In this document: one piece after another, positions 28,177 to 37,602 of the stretch | How the letters are laid out: every line of letters starts with the position of its first letter | Numbering within the stretch: the first letter of the stretch is position 1 | Assembly (NCBI GenBank): GCA_001801995.1 | Contig: MGZB01000001.1 | Location: 62,001 to 126,000, forward strand | Origin: Gammaproteobacteria bacterium RIFOXYD12_FULL_61_37 | GTDB lineage: Bacteria > Pseudomonadota > Gammaproteobacteria > Chromatiales > Chromatiaceae | Direction: 5' to 3' | Length of the DNA: 64,000 nt | Notes under the pieces: generated by a model | The model's input: only the letters and a program-made list of their open reading frames with translations | Told to the model about the DNA's origin: nothing | Database searches by the model: none | Made by a program: the position numbers and the translations under genes

Positions 28177-31100
28177 TTACTGGTTATGGATATTGAAGCC
28201 CTTCGGCTTGGTTGTCATGTCACCCGCCTCAACCTCGCCACCATTGCCGGCGCGGTTGGTTCTCCGCAGGGTCGATTCAATTTTGGGGTTGTCCCAGGGA
28301 CCCGAGACCTGGTACTGGGTGGTGCTTACCTTGTTGAGTTCCTTGCCGATGATTTTGTTGGTCACGAACAGCGCGGCGCCGATGACCGGTCCTCCGGCAA
28401 TGGCGCCGGCCGTGGCCAGGGTGCCGGTGAGGTCGGGCGTGACCGTGACTTGCTGGTCGAAATCCTTTGAGATCAGCCCCGTCTTGCCGGAAATATTGAT
28501 GACCCCGGTGGGGCCCTCGATCAGCAGATTGTGGGTATAGGCATCGCCGTTATCCAGACTGAACCGCCCTTCGATGCGGTCAAAGCTCAGCCCTTTCCCG
28601 AAAAAGTCGCTGAAATCCAGGGTCAGGCGCCGTTGCAGGGCGCCCAGGTTGAGCAGGCCGAATACGCGGCCGACGCCGGGTTCCATGTCGGCAAAGCTGC
28701 CTTTTCTCAACCGCAGATCCAATTCGCCGTCCAATTGCAGATTCTTTACATCCCTGGGGTCTCCGGGCCAAGTCAGCGAGCCTTCGATGCGACCAGGGGC
28801 CTTCCTTATGTTGGCGGTAAAGGCAAAGGCCTCCAGCAGCCTGCCGAGGTCCTGGGTTTCCATCAGGAACCGGGCGGAGGAACCGGGATACAGCTTTCCG
28901 TACAGCCAATTCCCCGTTGCGTTCAGGTTGAACCAGGCGGAGGCGACCTTGAGCTGGTCGAAGTAAAGACCATCCTCCCGTTTGTTGGCCCTGAACAGAA
29001 GGCTTCCCAGGTCCTGGCCATTGAAGATCAGGTGTTTGCTGTCCACATAAAAGGAAGGGAGACTGCGCGGATCGAACTTGTTGGGTTGATCCCCCCGATC
29101 CGGCTTACCTTTGTCGGAATTGAAAACAAGCTGATCCAGATCGAGGCGGATAACCCCGTTTTTCAAATCCGAGGGCAACTCGACCAGCCCCTTAAACAGG
29201 GGGCTTTCGACCACTCCCCGCCAGCCTTCCTCTGCGGGGCCTCCCTTGAGCCGAATCTGGTCAAAGGCCAGATCCTTATATTCGAAGCGGCCGAAGTTGA
29301 CATCCACCTCGCGCATCTTGAAGCCCGTCGCCCCCTGGGTTCCGTTCTTTTGCTGAGATGGCGGAAGCATTTCGATCCAAGGGTCGAGCTTGAAGTGGGA
29401 AAGCTGCCCACTGATGTAGAGGCCCTCTTGATCGGGCTGGCGTGCCGGTTCACCCCCGAAACTGATCCCGGCGCGATCTATCTCCCTTTTCCCCTGGCCT
29501 GATTTGGACATGATCAAAATAGCGTCCGCGACCCCTTCCAGCCGGATACCCACCGGCATGACCTTGTTGGGCGGGGCGGGAGTCAGGTTGATGCGCAGGG
29601 GTTGATGGCTATTGTCCCTCTTGCCGATTGGTGGCGGCAGGTCGATGGAAACGCCATCCAGATTGGTGGTCAGACTCAGTTCCGTCGAGGTATTGGGGCC
29701 GCGGCTGGAATGGGGAAGATCAACCGTCAAATGCCAATTGGTAATGCCTTTAATGTGAGGAAAAGAGAGGCCCACATAGCGGTCCAGCAAGGTCTTTACG
29801 TCAAACCGGCCACGGGCATGGATCAGGGTGCGCCTTGGGCCTTCCTTCGGCGACTCCACATCCACCCTCAGATCGGACCCGAGCCCCGTGGCCTTGATGC
29901 CATCCGCCCAGACTTTGGTTTCGTCGAAATGGAGTTCACCGCTGGCGCCGGCGAGATCGACCTCCCACTTAGGCATCTTGAACCGGTTGTCGAGAAATCG
30001 GAGCGCACCGACGATCTTGGGATCGCTGTTGTCCTCGACGGCCAGCGGCTGGACGAGATGGAGCGACAGGCGGGCGTCCCCCTCGACCGCCATCTCGGAG
30101 ACGATGGAACCGAACCGCGCGGACAGGGGGCTATCGGAGAGCACTCTCAGATCATCGGCCAGGGGACCTGAGACCACACCATCGAGCAGCAGCGGCGAGA
30201 CCGGCTCCAGGCTGTCGATCCTGACCTCGGCCTTTTCCACCTTGCTGGCGTAGATATCGGCGTCATAGATCTTGCCGTCGAAGCTGTTATTGAGGAAGTG
30301 GAGTTCCGCGTCCATCCCCTCCAATCGCGGCCAGCCATCCTGATAATCGAAGATGGCATCTTCGACGCCGACCAGGGCCTCGAAACGCCCGGTGGGATTC
30401 TTGTCGAAGGGAAAATCCTGGATCGGGCCGTGGAAAAGGATCGTGCCCGAGCGAAGATTGCCGGCTACCAGCCCGCGATCCAACCGTTTGACAAGATTGG
30501 GATTCATAACGCCGGCGGGCAGGTACTGATGGAGATAGGCTACATCTCCGTTGCTCAGCTCGGTTTGCAGATTGAGCTGGGGTGAACCTGTCTCTGGGGC
30601 ATACAAGGAAAATCGCGACCGGGTCATGAAATCCGGGGTGTTGATTTCAAGCGAATCGGATTGGATTCGAAGATCACGTCCCGTCCTGTTCCACTGGACG
30701 GACCCCTGCGCCCTCTTTAGCCGGAGAGGCTGACGAAAGAGTCCATCGGCAAAGTCGAGAAGGACATCGTTGCTATCGACGACCAGCTTGCCACTGGAGG
30801 GATTGGCTTGAAATCTGAGGGAAAGATTGCTGACCCCTGGGAATTCTTTCCCGGCCTTGACGCGCAGACGCTCGGTGCGGCCCGACAGCTCCCAGTGGGC
30901 AGGCTGCTTCGGCGCTTCCAGTGACACCTCCCCTTCCTTGCGCGGAGCGCCGCCCCCGTCGTTAAAGGTAAAACGGAGGTCATGCAGGTCTCCGGCGGGT
31001 TGCAATTGGCGCAAGGACTCCGCGATTCCCGGCTCACCATCCGCCCCTACAGGCGGGAAGAGCGTGGCGACCGAAAGGAAATCCTGCAAGCGCATGAAGC

Positions 31101-32211
31101 TGGCGCTGGTCTCCAGGCGGGTCAGGCGATTGGCGTCCTGCCAGACCTGAACGGTCATGGACGATTTGGGCCAGAGGGCGTCATTCCGCTTGAACTGCAC
31201 GTCAACCAGCTCCATGCGCCAGCCGCCGTTACCGAGGCGCCAGCGGAATTGACCCTGAAGCTGGTTGAGGGCGTAGGCGTTCTCGACTTCGCCCTGTTTC
31301 CGGGTGATGGTGACGCCTTGTAGCGAGATGTCGCCCTCCAATCGTTGCAGGCGGCCATGGGTGATATTGCCCCAGACCTGAAACGCGGCGAGCCCGGAAA
31401 CCTGTTTGAAATCCGGCGGGATGAAATGCTTCAGCAAGGCCTCCAGCGCCAGCGCCTCTCCGGCAAGATAGAAGTCGCTGTCCCAGTCACTCGTCTGGGT
31501 CGGATCGCCCCGGAGCCTTACCGCCGCCTTGACGTGATTGTTCGGCGCATCCCTGCGCCTCTCCCCTTCGGGGCTTGCGCGAAAATCTGCTCCAGGCAGA
31601 TTTTTCGCGGTATATCCATCGACTTGCAATCCTGCCTCAAGCTTGAAATACCCCCCCTCTTGCCGGAGGTTGAGATTGAGGTTGTACAGCCGGAGCGGTT
31701 CGCTCGAACGGGGCGTTTCTAGCGTGATTTCAGAACTGATCAAGCCCACGCCGAGGGGTAATTCCTTCAGATCAAGCCCGTCTCCCGTCTCTCCGCCAAA
31801 TTCCAGATCATTGATGCCCAGCAATCGAATACTGCCGTCTTCCTGGCGGCGCAGGCGCAAATGGGCATCAGCCAGGGAAAGCATGGCCGGGACCGGCCTT
31901 CCCTCGCGGAGGGAATCCCACAGGCTGAAATCAACGCGAATTTCGGACAGGCGCAAGGGCGTGGACTTACCCTGCTCCATGGAAAGCTCAACGTCCCGGA
32001 GAATCAATTGCGGGCCGAAACCGTACCAATGGCCCCTGATCGATCCCACGCCTACCTGACGGCCGATGGCCTGCTCCAGTGCGCTTTCAATCTCGGCGCG
32101 ATAGCCGGCTGCCAGGGGAAGTACCAGGCGAGCCAAACCAATCCCTATTCCCATCACGACAACGGTGATGACGACAACGCGGTTGGTGATGGAGGCCAGG
32201 GAGCGAAGCAT
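28177..32211 (-). CDS. yhdP: YhdP family AsmA-like envelope protein
   Basis: A 1344-residue AsmA-like protein that, in E. coli, bridges the periplasm and moves phospholipids to the outer membrane. An N-terminal membrane anchor (about residues 10-35) is followed by long beta-rich repeats predicted to form a hydrophobic groove, and a conserved C-terminal region (LGALQRRLTLDFSDFFGKGLSFDRIEGRFSLDNG, then DFDQQVTVTPDLTGTLATAGAIAGGP). It starts 5 bp after the rng stop. Near residues 200-223 the coding sequence holds a hairpin-rich segment (31541-31610) that looks like an in-frame insertion; the frame stays open through it. Confidence 0.94.
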   Translation of the reverse strand: MLRSLASITNRVVVITVVVMGIGIGLARLVLPLAAGYRAEIESALEQAIGRQVGVGSIRGHWYGFGPQLILRDVELSMEQGKSTPLRLSEIRVDFSLWDSLREGRPVPAMLSLADAHLRLRRQEDGSIRLLGINDLEFGGETGDGLDLKELPLGVGLISSEITLETPRSSEPLRLYNLNLNLRQEGGYFKLEAGLQVDGYTAKNLPGADFRASPEGERRRDAPNNHVKAAVRLRGDPTQTSDWDSDFYLAGEALALEALLKHFIPPDFKQVSGLAAFQVWGNITHGRLQRLEGDISLQGVTITRKQGEVENAYALNQLQGQFRWRLGNGGWRMELVDVQFKRNDALWPKSSMTVQVWQDANRLTRLETSASFMRLQDFLSVATLFPPVGADGEPGIAESLRQLQPAGDLHDLRFTFNDGGGAPRKEGEVSLEAPKQPAHWELSGRTERLRVKAGKEFPGVSNLSLRFQANPSSGKLVVDSNDVLLDFADGLFRQPLRLKRAQGSVQWNRTGRDLRIQSDSLEINTPDFMTRSRFSLYAPETGSPQLNLQTELSNGDVAYLHQYLPAGVMNPNLVKRLDRGLVAGNLRSGTILFHGPIQDFPFDKNPTGRFEALVGVEDAIFDYQDGWPRLEGMDAELHFLNNSFDGKIYDADIYASKVEKAEVRIDSLEPVSPLLLDGVVSGPLADDLRVLSDSPLSARFGSIVSEMAVEGDARLSLHLVQPLAVEDNSDPKIVGALRFLDNRFKMPKWEVDLAGASGELHFDETKVWADGIKATGLGSDLRVDVESPKEGPRRTLIHARGRFDVKTLLDRYVGLSFPHIKGITNWHLTVDLPHSSRGPNTSTELSLTTNLDGVSIDLPPPIGKRDNSHQPLRINLTPAPPNKVMPVGIRLEGVADAILIMSKSGQGKREIDRAGISFGGEPARQPDQEGLYISGQLSHFKLDPWIEMLPPSQQKNGTQGATGFKMREVDVNFGRFEYKDLAFDQIRLKGGPAEEGWRGVVESPLFKGLVELPSDLKNGVIRLDLDQLVFNSDKGKPDRGDQPNKFDPRSLPSFYVDSKHLIFNGQDLGSLLFRANKREDGLYFDQLKVASAWFNLNATGNWLYGKLYPGSSARFLMETQDLGRLLEAFAFTANIRKAPGRIEGSLTWPGDPRDVKNLQLDGELDLRLRKGSFADMEPGVGRVFGLLNLGALQRRLTLDFSDFFGKGLSFDRIEGRFSLDNGDAYTHNLLIEGPTGVINISGKTGLISKDFDQQVTVTPDLTGTLATAGAIAGGPVIGAALFVTNKIIGKELNKVSTTQYQVSGPWDNPKIESTLRRTNRAGNGGEVEAGDMTTKPKGFNIHNQ
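31541..31610 (-). repeat. Hairpin-rich segment in frame inside yhdP
   Basis: Three palindromes lie side by side within 70 bp of coding sequence. GGCGCA/TGCGCC (31544-31559) has a 4-nt spacer; CCCC/GGGG (31563-31573) has a 3-nt spacer; a 13-bp inverted repeat with one bulged base has arms CGCGAAAATCTGC (31578-31590) and 31596-31609. It encodes about 23 residues including NLPGADFRASPEGERRRDAPN, which is polar and unlike the flanking beta-rich repeats. The pattern is that of a small palindromic mobile element tolerated in frame; that origin is inference. Confidence 0.5.
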
Positions 32212-35532: not shown

Positions 35533-37602
35533 CTAATGCAATTTATTGGCCGGGAGCTTGCCGAGTGTGATGCGGATGGCAATGCCAGCATCGACGGTAT
35601 AGATGTGATTCAGCAGCCATTCGCGCAGAAACTCTACGACCTCGACGCCCAATATGAGGGGATTGTGTATCAGCTCCCGCTTAAATCCATCCAGTTTGCG
35701 TTCGAAGGCCCTGTGCATGCGGGCGTGGGCCTCCAGCTCACGGTAGCCGTAGGCCTCCATCATTCTTTCTTCCGCCGTGAAATGGATTCGGCAATAGCGG
35801 TCCAGGGCGAACAGGGCCTTGCCGATCTCGATGGTTCCCATTTCGTTGTGAAGCGACTGGTGGAGCCGGCTTACCCAGTGCAGCAGGTGGCGGTGGTGTT
35901 CATCAATGATGTCTATACCCACCGAATAGCCGGGGTTCCAGGGTATGAGACTGCTGTCCGCGCCGGATGCGTCGAACGGCAGACGCTCGCGGGGATTGAT
36001 GGTGTCGTCCTGGTATCGTGCGCGGATTTTCAGGATATCGGTGAGCGCATTGTCGAAGGCATCCACCAGGCTAGGATCGAAAAAGGCGCCGCGATGGTCG
36101 TGGATGTAATCGATGGCCTGCTCGACAGGCCAGCCGCGCTTGTAGGGGCGCTCCGAAATCAGGGCGTCGAACACATCGGAAACGGCGCAAATACGGGCAG
36201 CGATGGGTATCTCTTCACCGGAAAGACCATGCGGATAGCCCCTGCCATCCCATCTCTCGTGGTGACTGAGGGCGATATCCCGCGCCATGCGCATCAAGGA
36301 ATCCCCGTTTTCCAAAAGCCGGGCGCCGATGACCGTGTGCTTTTTCATCCGTTCGAATTCGTCGTAGCTCAAGGGCGCCGGTTTCAACAATATATCGTCG
36401 GCAATGCCGATCTTGCCCAGGTCGTGCATAGGGGCGGCCTGCTCGATCAGCTCGCAGGTCGCCTGATCCAGGCCAGCCGCGTTGGCAATCAGCGCCGCGA
36501 ATTTGCTCATGCGCAGGATGTGCATCCCGGTTTCGGCATCCCGGTATTCCGAAGCCAGGGCTAAACGGTGAATGGTGTCGGTGCGGGAGTGGTGCAGCTC
36601 CACCTGTTTCAGCTTGATTCTTTCCTCAGCCATGCGGCGCCCCACGACGCCAGCCAGGATGTCGGCCAGTTCCTTCATGACCTCTTGGTCGCCGTCGCCA
36701 TGCACATGGCTGGGAGGCAGATAGACAACCAGGGTACCCAGCAAACGCGAGCCATCCTCCAGCGGCAGGCTGTATGCGCCACCCCAGTTCCCTTTCTCAA
36801 AACACTGATCGCATTGCTCCGAGCTGGGGGCGTAAAGGGGCTCCCGCCTCTTGGCGGCCAAACCGCACAATCCGCGTCCGAGCGGGATCTTGAAGCAGCT
36901 TTTACGTTGTTCCCGCGACAGATTGCGATGGGCGATCAGTGATAATTCGCCCTTGTTGTTGGCGAGAAAGATCGCTCCCTGCGATGTCTCTGAAAGACTG
37001 GGCGCGGACAGGATCTGATCCAGGGCGGCTTCCATCTGATCCTTGAAGCCGAAAGGAAGGAACGCGGTGCGGGCGAGGCCGAGCATGGCTTCTTTGCTTT
37101 GCTCCAGCTTAACCCGAACCTGTTCCGAGCGGGAACGTACCGATGCCTCGGCCTCCACGGCCTGCTCGGCGCGATACAGTTCCAACTGAACGCCATGGAT
37201 ATAGTTGCTGAGCGAAAGCTGCCGTTCGATACGCGCGTTCAGACTTTGCGGGGCGAAAGGCTTGGTGACGTAGTCAGCCGCGCCCAGACTGAAGCCCTGC
37301 GCTTCGTCATCCTCCTCTGACAGGGCGGTCAGAAATATGATGGGAATGTCCCTGGTTCTGGTGTCGGCCTTGAGGCGGCGGCATACCTCGTACCCGTCCA
37401 TGCCGGGCATCATAATGTCCAGCAGAATGAGGTCCGGCCTGGGGTCCTGGCTCGCAAGATCAAGCGCCATTTTCCCGCTCTCGGCGGTAAGCAGTTGATA
37501 CCTGTCTCTCAGTCGAGCCGAGAGAATAAGGATATTGTCCGGTCCATCGTCGACGATGAGCAGCTTTTTTTGTGGGGTTGGTGCTCGAATTTGCATTTCC
37601 AT
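35533..37602 (-). CDS. Response regulator with GAF, HD-GYP and bacteriohemerythrin domains
   Basis: A 689-residue soluble signalling protein. Domain 1 (about 12-130) is a receiver with phospho-acceptor D62 (LLDIMMPGMDG) and the conserved lysine in TKPFAP. Domain 2 (about 170-335) is GAF-like with cysteines in GLCGLAAKRREPLYA and CDQCF. Domain 3 (about 345-530) is HD-GYP with HDLGK and HHERWDGRGYPHGL, a c-di-GMP phosphodiesterase motif set. Domain 4 (about 550-675) is hemerythrin, with iron ligands in EHHRHLLHW, HFTAEERMM, HARMHRAF and a final HxxxxD (HIYTVD). It probably couples oxygen and phosphorylation to c-di-GMP breakdown. No kinase gene is adjacent. M1 or M3 may be the start. Confidence 0.9.
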   Translation of the reverse strand: MEMQIRAPTPQKKLLIVDDGPDNILILSARLRDRYQLLTAESGKMALDLASQDPRPDLILLDIMMPGMDGYEVCRRLKADTRTRDIPIIFLTALSEEDDEAQGFSLGAADYVTKPFAPQSLNARIERQLSLSNYIHGVQLELYRAEQAVEAEASVRSRSEQVRVKLEQSKEAMLGLARTAFLPFGFKDQMEAALDQILSAPSLSETSQGAIFLANNKGELSLIAHRNLSREQRKSCFKIPLGRGLCGLAAKRREPLYAPSSEQCDQCFEKGNWGGAYSLPLEDGSRLLGTLVVYLPPSHVHGDGDQEVMKELADILAGVVGRRMAEERIKLKQVELHHSRTDTIHRLALASEYRDAETGMHILRMSKFAALIANAAGLDQATCELIEQAAPMHDLGKIGIADDILLKPAPLSYDEFERMKKHTVIGARLLENGDSLMRMARDIALSHHERWDGRGYPHGLSGEEIPIAARICAVSDVFDALISERPYKRGWPVEQAIDYIHDHRGAFFDPSLVDAFDNALTDILKIRARYQDDTINPRERLPFDASGADSSLIPWNPGYSVGIDIIDEHHRHLLHWVSRLHQSLHNEMGTIEIGKALFALDRYCRIHFTAEERMMEAYGYRELEAHARMHRAFERKLDGFKRELIHNPLILGVEVVEFLREWLLNHIYTVDAGIAIRITLGKLPANKLH

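Follow-up and report, generated by a model that had tools for sequence, protein, structure and literature searches.

Very probably, the yhdP gene of this bacterium carries a small mobile palindromic repeat that has inserted cleanly into it. A 66-bp segment with three hairpins interrupts the gene in the 64,000-nucleotide stretch analysed here (the window), is absent from the matching empty sites of relatives, occurs in many copies in the genome and leaves the reading frame open, and its hairpins are conserved through paired changes between copies. The preliminary description had proposed a mobile element inserted in the gene. Its insertion is borne out by the empty sites, and these empty sites together with the spread of the copies argue for mobility.

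The repeat unit in yhdP and its empty site

The window comes from a genome of 3.47 Mb in 57 contigs (G000), for which a relative of the same genus (G001) is available. The open reading frame that contains the segment is YhdP (Pfam PF13116, E 2.3e-247), and the features are collected in Table 1. The bounds of the unit are based on the 66-bp difference from G001, the period of the tandem arrays, the tnpB site (start at G) and codons 203-224; an alternative boundary, 31541-31606, is no worse a match to the empty site in yhdP.

Table 1. Features of the repeat unit and its host gene (positions in the window)
Feature	Position	Strand	Basis or remark
Palindromic repeat unit in yhdP, GTTCGGCGC...ATTTTT	31540..31605	+	66 bp; boundary +/-1 base
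Hairpin 1, GGCGCA-TCCC-TGCGCC	31544..31559	+	Folding and copy alignment
Hairpin 2, CCCC-TTC-GGGG	31563..31573	+	Folding and copy alignment
Hairpin 3, AAAATCTGC...GCAGATTTT	31582..31604	+	Two-sided changes between copies in 8/9 pairs
ATT, T-rich left flank of insertion site	31537..31539	+	Present too in the empty G001 gene
Insert in yhdP frame, KNLPGADFRASPEGERRRDAPN	31540..31605	-	YhdP residues 203-224, 22 residues
yhdP, 1344 aa, frame intact	28177..32211	-	ORF list and Pfam

The three palindromes that had been described at 31541-31610 are present, both by direct reading and by comparison of folding with shuffled sequences. Folded as RNA, the minus strand of the segment reaches -34 kcal/mol, compared with -21.8 +/- 2.9 kcal/mol in 200 dinucleotide shuffles (z -4.2), and none of the 200 shuffles is as stable. 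The 13-bp inverted repeat with one bulge (31582-31590/31596-31604 and 31578-31585/31602-31609) is likewise real, although its outer CGCG (31606-31609) is mostly host-gene sequence outside the unit. Consequently, the site of insertion contributed part of the 13-bp length by chance. The peptide encoded by the segment does lie in frame within the YhdP ORF, as previously noted, but it has 22 residues, one more than was then given. The window's own copy is open in all six frames, and the 22-residue insert would be expected to be translated, judging from the intact reading frame.

Comparison with relatives reveals the empty site directly. The YhdP protein of G001, which is 77% identical over its full length, is shorter by exactly 22 residues, or 66 bp, and the junction reads gattg|gcagt in G001 and gattg[66 bp]gcggt in the window. 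In an alignment of 20 YhdP N-terminal regions, all 22 insert columns are gaps in 19/19 relatives; G001 is 78% identical in this region, and the others are 19-34% identical, so that gap placement is soft there. Alignment thus bears out the earlier expectation of about 20 extra residues, and G001 lacks exactly 22. A search of the source genome for the segment returns 33 BLAST matches at E<=1e-3, itself included, which are mostly intergenic and include one other gene that uses the same frame. The distant YhdP proteins aligned therefore do not conserve the segment, and the string is not single-copy.

An ancestral origin of the segment, as a native YhdP loop since lost in relatives, is extremely improbable. 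The in-frame state is the sole point in favor of this reading, and it is refuted by the relatives tested: the columns are gaps in every one of them, the same DNA recurs throughout the genome, and a near-identical peptide is found in unrelated proteins. In an AlphaFold2 model of YhdP built from the same alignment (mean pLDDT 80.4), strands 188-197 and 226-234 are joined by a turn that contains the insert, and the pLDDT falls below 50 at residues 209-221. The model suggests that the 22-residue insert forms a loop tolerable by the beta-sheet wall of YhdP. A fold search of the PDB with this model gave no matches at E <= 0.001.

The repeat family and its larger carriers

Matches to the unit often occur in tandem arrays with a period of 66 bp and one to four units per array. 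A search with a single unit found it in 32 of the 146 genomes of the source's family, own genome included. The structure was evaluated in an alignment (A1) of 46 of 48 thinned copies, all from the source's own family, after the removal, prior to thinning, of 15 loci whose copies were odd or partial. Among these 46 distinct copies, two-sided changes are found in 12 of 19 hairpin pairs, compared with 4.6 in shuffles, none of which (0/500) was as high. Similarly, 92.3% of the alignment cells are paired, compared with 36.7-53.8% when the partner is slid; since the copies are related, these controls are not strict probabilities.

A covariance model (R1), whose E-values are rough, gives 52 matches at E<=0.01 in the source genome, 59 in G001, 28 in G003 and 26 in G013, and it matches 140 of 369 genomes sampled across the class (E<=0.001), own genome included. 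The loci studied are a non-random set, some chosen by a peptide match to YhdP and others as the best matches of longer lists; one match list was taken at one row per locus (70/87), and a second list was used whole (97/97). In some other genomes, the model matches are 77-82 bases long. A related repeat class with 77-base model matches and a different first hairpin, e.g. GATGAAAAACGTCCCTGTTTTTC, is seen at loci L181-L186 of the source genome. The phage collection contains no match to the unit, and plasmids yielded either no unit match or 21-base chance matches. The unit also occurs on one IMG/VR viral contig (L306:1600-1760), where its position seems to be immediately upstream of an ORF start, and this contig represents a possible route between hosts.

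The paired changes that keep the hairpins across species, together with the mostly intergenic location of the copies, would also fit hairpins that are kept for a role in RNA, such as a transcript end, a 3' stabiliser or a small RNA, with spread as a side effect. For BRE, a published repeat, an overlap with the small-RNA region bprJ is described (PMC3110155). In the source genome, the unit is oriented against the genes at 12 of 14 sites between co-directional genes, although most of these copies belong to a single larger repeat. However, when all 65 sites between co-directional genes are counted, 36 are oriented against the genes and 29 with them. The TTCGG strand has fewer G-T pairs (17) than A-C mismatches (33), so an RNA role of this strand gains no support. 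A terminator scan of two copies found no terminator-like match. Rfam returned nothing at the element in four loci and, in the window, one chance-level match (PhotoRC-I, with 13.5 bits where the gathering score is 45). With this evidence on both sides, the RNA role is considered quite unlikely.

Many copies are nested in larger repeats. The source genome has 37 unit sites when weak model matches are counted, and 16 of them fall within a larger repeat that is intergenic and has TIR-like ends; each of these 16 unit-bearing copies holds one to four units. A search of the genome with the right part of the larger repeat gave 42 matches: 16 with the unit, 20 without it, 2 remnants, 2 truncated on the unit side and 2 fragments. 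An exact empty site is provided by L269 (~165 bp), which reads gcatttg|tctgtg where a full copy reads gcatttg[66 bp]tctgtg. TTTG is found at both ends of the unit in this larger repeat, so a short duplication is possible there. The larger repeat (CCTAGAAACCTCTTTTCAACCGCAAAGGACGC...GCGGTTAAATGAGGAAATTAGG) is about 165 bp long when the unit is not counted, and the source genome has about 40 copies of it with and without the unit (L269, L271, L279, L285, L287, L290-L305 and others). In G001 (L191-L211), the unit has other carriers: a different larger repeat with CTAACCCAACCTAC ends, and a third repeat (gtgtagcgag...). The unit is therefore carried by at least three different larger intergenic repeats, and because it rides different repeats in the two genomes, it is not tied to one carrier.

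These observations bear on whether the unit moves by itself at all. It could instead be part of MITE-like larger intergenic repeats, have spread along with these and have reached genes via recombination, template switching or gene conversion, with arrays formed by slippage. The 16 nested sites, the variation in array copy number from one to four and the likeness of the composite copies to one another favor this explanation. The 20 larger-repeat copies that lack the unit, the different repeats on which the G001 units ride, and the in-gene copies, which gain one or two units without any larger-repeat sequence, weigh against it and make it rather unlikely.

Copies in other genes and the target site

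Besides yhdP, six genes, one in the source genome and five in related or same-class genomes, contain one or two in-frame units, and their relatives are 22 or about 44 residues shorter at these positions. The pyruvate oxidoreductase-like (POR) protein of the source genome (1541 aa) has 22 residues more than that of G001, in the same reading frame as in YhdP. The DEAD-box helicase of G013 has 22 more than that of G004, and CshA (5ivl, a PDB match) has 6 residues between two aligned stretches where the G013 helicase has 28. QueG of G001 contains two tandem units; its nine relatives, the source genome among them, are shorter by 44 residues in six cases and by 43 in three, and the placement of the gap varies. 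CobT of G001 also contains two units, and four of five relatives show a 44-residue gap, one of them being the second cobT of G001; the fifth aligned solely downstream of the site. A HipA-like protein of G478 has 22 residues more than two relatives, with a further length difference elsewhere, and TnpB of G131 has 22 more than two Burkholderia relatives. Two further in-gene insertions are probable, one in HsdM of G055 (L118), where relatives are variable at the site, and a putative one in a SPOR-domain protein of G001 (L206).

Across these nine in-gene sites, the unit is antisense in eight and sense in TnpB, and three reading frames are used. A gene caller applied to 125 sites, with arrays merged, places the same nine in genes. 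This survey covered matches of 64-74 columns and left 13 sites at contig or locus edges unclassified, the caller's codon model was trained on the window's family alone, and at L113, where the caller's strand was wrong, the strand was set by homology. Because a bacterial genome is mostly coding, in-gene copies are strongly depleted, which is consistent with selection against broken genes. The copies that persist in genes might do so because selection spares just those inserts that leave the frame intact and lie in loops able to accommodate them.

Several candidates were rejected. The unit does not appear to be designed to suit genes, as 8 of 94 distinct units are open in six frames, compared with 20.9 expected from shuffles. 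Apparent in-gene copies at L182, L187, L061, L138 and window positions 36906-36993 were judged to be spurious frames or weak matches, and L066, where an ABC transporter ORF opens with two units, was excluded because it lies at a contig end.

Other in-frame repeats were observed in the POR-like genes. The POR-like gene of the source genome (L009:5610-5665) holds a second palindromic repeat, GTGTAGGTCGCCCTTCAGGGCGAC...GGCCTGAAGGCCGGCCTACAC, in frame and with a net gain of 10 residues relative to G001. It reads GVGRPSGRHAGLKAGL and is flanked by GTGTAG and CTACAC, ends that look like those of a GTAG REP dimer. A related peptide occurs near the start of the next ORF (L009:6525), and the same POR-like gene has a further in-frame extra of 17 residues relative to G001. 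The G001 orthologue (L228/L236) has its own in-frame repeat, QGGxSVAGGRTPGATD, single at one site and as a tandem double at another, and this repeat is missing at those sites in the source genome and two other aligned relatives. The source's genus may be prone to insertions of repeats in frame, beyond one accident.

The ends of the unit and its target were evaluated at the in-gene sites and in the wider set of copies. No target duplication is found at the yhdP, POR and tnpB sites. TTG or TTA stands to the left of TTCGG in 106 of 116 copies, a count drawn from matches of 68-73 columns (116/167) in which many copies come from one shared larger repeat and are not independent. At the tnpB site, excising GTTCG...TTTTTTT leaves TTTCCGCG, which is identical to one of two relatives (the other has TTCCCGCG), while excising TTCG...TTTC alters a proline kept by both. 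This boundary evidence indicates that the unit most likely starts with G (or A) and that its target is most likely TT; the yhdP site taken alone fits the other boundary slightly better. Seven of the nine in-gene sites have TT directly before them, a dinucleotide whose frequency in the window is 4.3% (P about 9e-9); the two sites without it are those in CobT and HsdM. The empty relatives of the DEAD-box helicase and QueG are too diverged to reveal the target.

Movement and relation to known systems

In the proposed mechanism, the three-hairpin 66-bp unit would enter beside a short T run without target duplication, as at the three readable in-gene sites. The yhdP frame stays open because 66 is a multiple of three and the copy is stop-free in the frame used, and the protein would acquire, at a beta-turn, a loop of 22 residues that is probably disordered. 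Other copies lie between genes, inside larger repeats and in head-to-tail 66-bp arrays, genes included (44 residues in QueG and CobT). Tandem arrays could also grow by slippage.

The unit may move as a folded single strand, acted on in trans by an HUH/Y1-type enzyme that uses a T-rich target and leaves no target duplication. This route is plausible, at somewhat below an even chance, because the clean T-rich insertion without duplication, the hairpins kept by paired changes and the tandem growth all fit it. IS200/IS605-type mobile ends are characterized by the lack of target duplication, a T-rich target and subterminal hairpins. The unit resembles them in its hairpins, its T-rich target and the lack of target duplication at three sites. 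Among 139 loci, a single one has a Y1-type relative near the unit. The source genome has six Y1 genes, none with a unit within 1.5 kb on either side, and the repeats that flank its three RAYT-like genes differ from the unit. The one relative found near any copy is a RAYT-like gene adjoining the in-gene tnpB copy (L115:2041-4188). Two other RAYT-like genes have different surroundings: one lies between GTAG repeats of its own (L029:1328-1903, GTAGGTGCGAATTCATTCGCAC), and another lies beside a CRISPR-like array with seven repeats in the examined stretch (L028:900-1360, TGAACCTTAGCCCTGTTATAGAAGGGATTAAGAC, spacing 68-73).

Comparison with published repeats places the unit near several known systems. 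The RPEs of Rickettsia are palindromic repeats located between genes and in frame within ORFs that likely encode functional proteins (PMC3733652). The parallel with them drawn in the preliminary description is apt, as the unit, too, is a palindromic repeat that occurs between genes as well as in frame within them. Compared by description rather than by sequence, the two differ in that the RPEs analysed in PMC3733652 end in CGTC, which the unit lacks, and in that the unit's model matches span many families of one class and are often tandem, inside proteins as well. The GTAG and CGTC REPs (Di Nocera et al. 2013, PMC3733652) are small palindromes, clustered or dimeric and in some cases located in ORFs, where dimers or groups encode 20-30 residues. 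The unit shares with them its small palindromes, clustering and location in ORFs, but it has three hairpins in 66 bp and no flanking RAYT gene was found. Its A1 consensus contains neither GTAG at a hairpin foot, as in GTAG REPs, nor CGTC at one end, as in CGTC REPs and RPE-4 and RPE-6.

BRE (Hot et al. 2011, PMC3110155) is a short betaproteobacterial repeat of about 90 bp (75-91 in Bordetella) with 69% GC, arranged in tandem with no or few bases in between, usually intergenic and possibly mobile, and some copies lie wholly within coding sequences. The unit is similarly tandem and intergenic with some copies in coding sequences; it is 66 bp long, compared with about 90 bp for BRE, and some of its model matches elsewhere reach 77-82 bases. 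The unit may belong to BRE, as far as the descriptions can be compared, and the available text of PMC3110155 presents no hairpin, empty-site or reading-frame analysis. The enterobacterial RU elements (PMC2759123) are small mobile intergenic repeats that also occur in genes, as does the unit, but by description they are longer, with units of 103-168 bp. The unit differs from a MITE, since its ends are not inverted repeats and the yhdP, POR and tnpB sites show no duplication (the TTTG of the larger repeat is ambiguous). A literature search by sequence motifs of the unit and of its peptide returned one unrelated paper, and a search by topic gave no other description of the unit.

Translated mobile palindromes, namely RPEs and intragenic REPs, are already known, and the unit adds good empty-site and structural evidence. 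Their best-known examples come from Rickettsia, a parasite in which relaxed selection could account for them. The present case includes seven genes with inserts absent from relatives (and two more that are probable), intact frames, exact empty sites, tandem growth within proteins, a covarying structure and class-wide model matches. More tentatively still than the single-strand route itself, autonomous three-hairpin units may move throughout the class as single-stranded DNA, via an enzyme in trans, into larger repeats and genes, where they would extend ordinary cellular proteins by 22-residue loops, either single or tandem, and constitute a standing source of new protein segments in free-living bacteria. 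How the units move, which loops tolerate them and what effect they have on the host protein thereby become testable questions, and small mobile DNA can serve as a continuing source of short protein loops.
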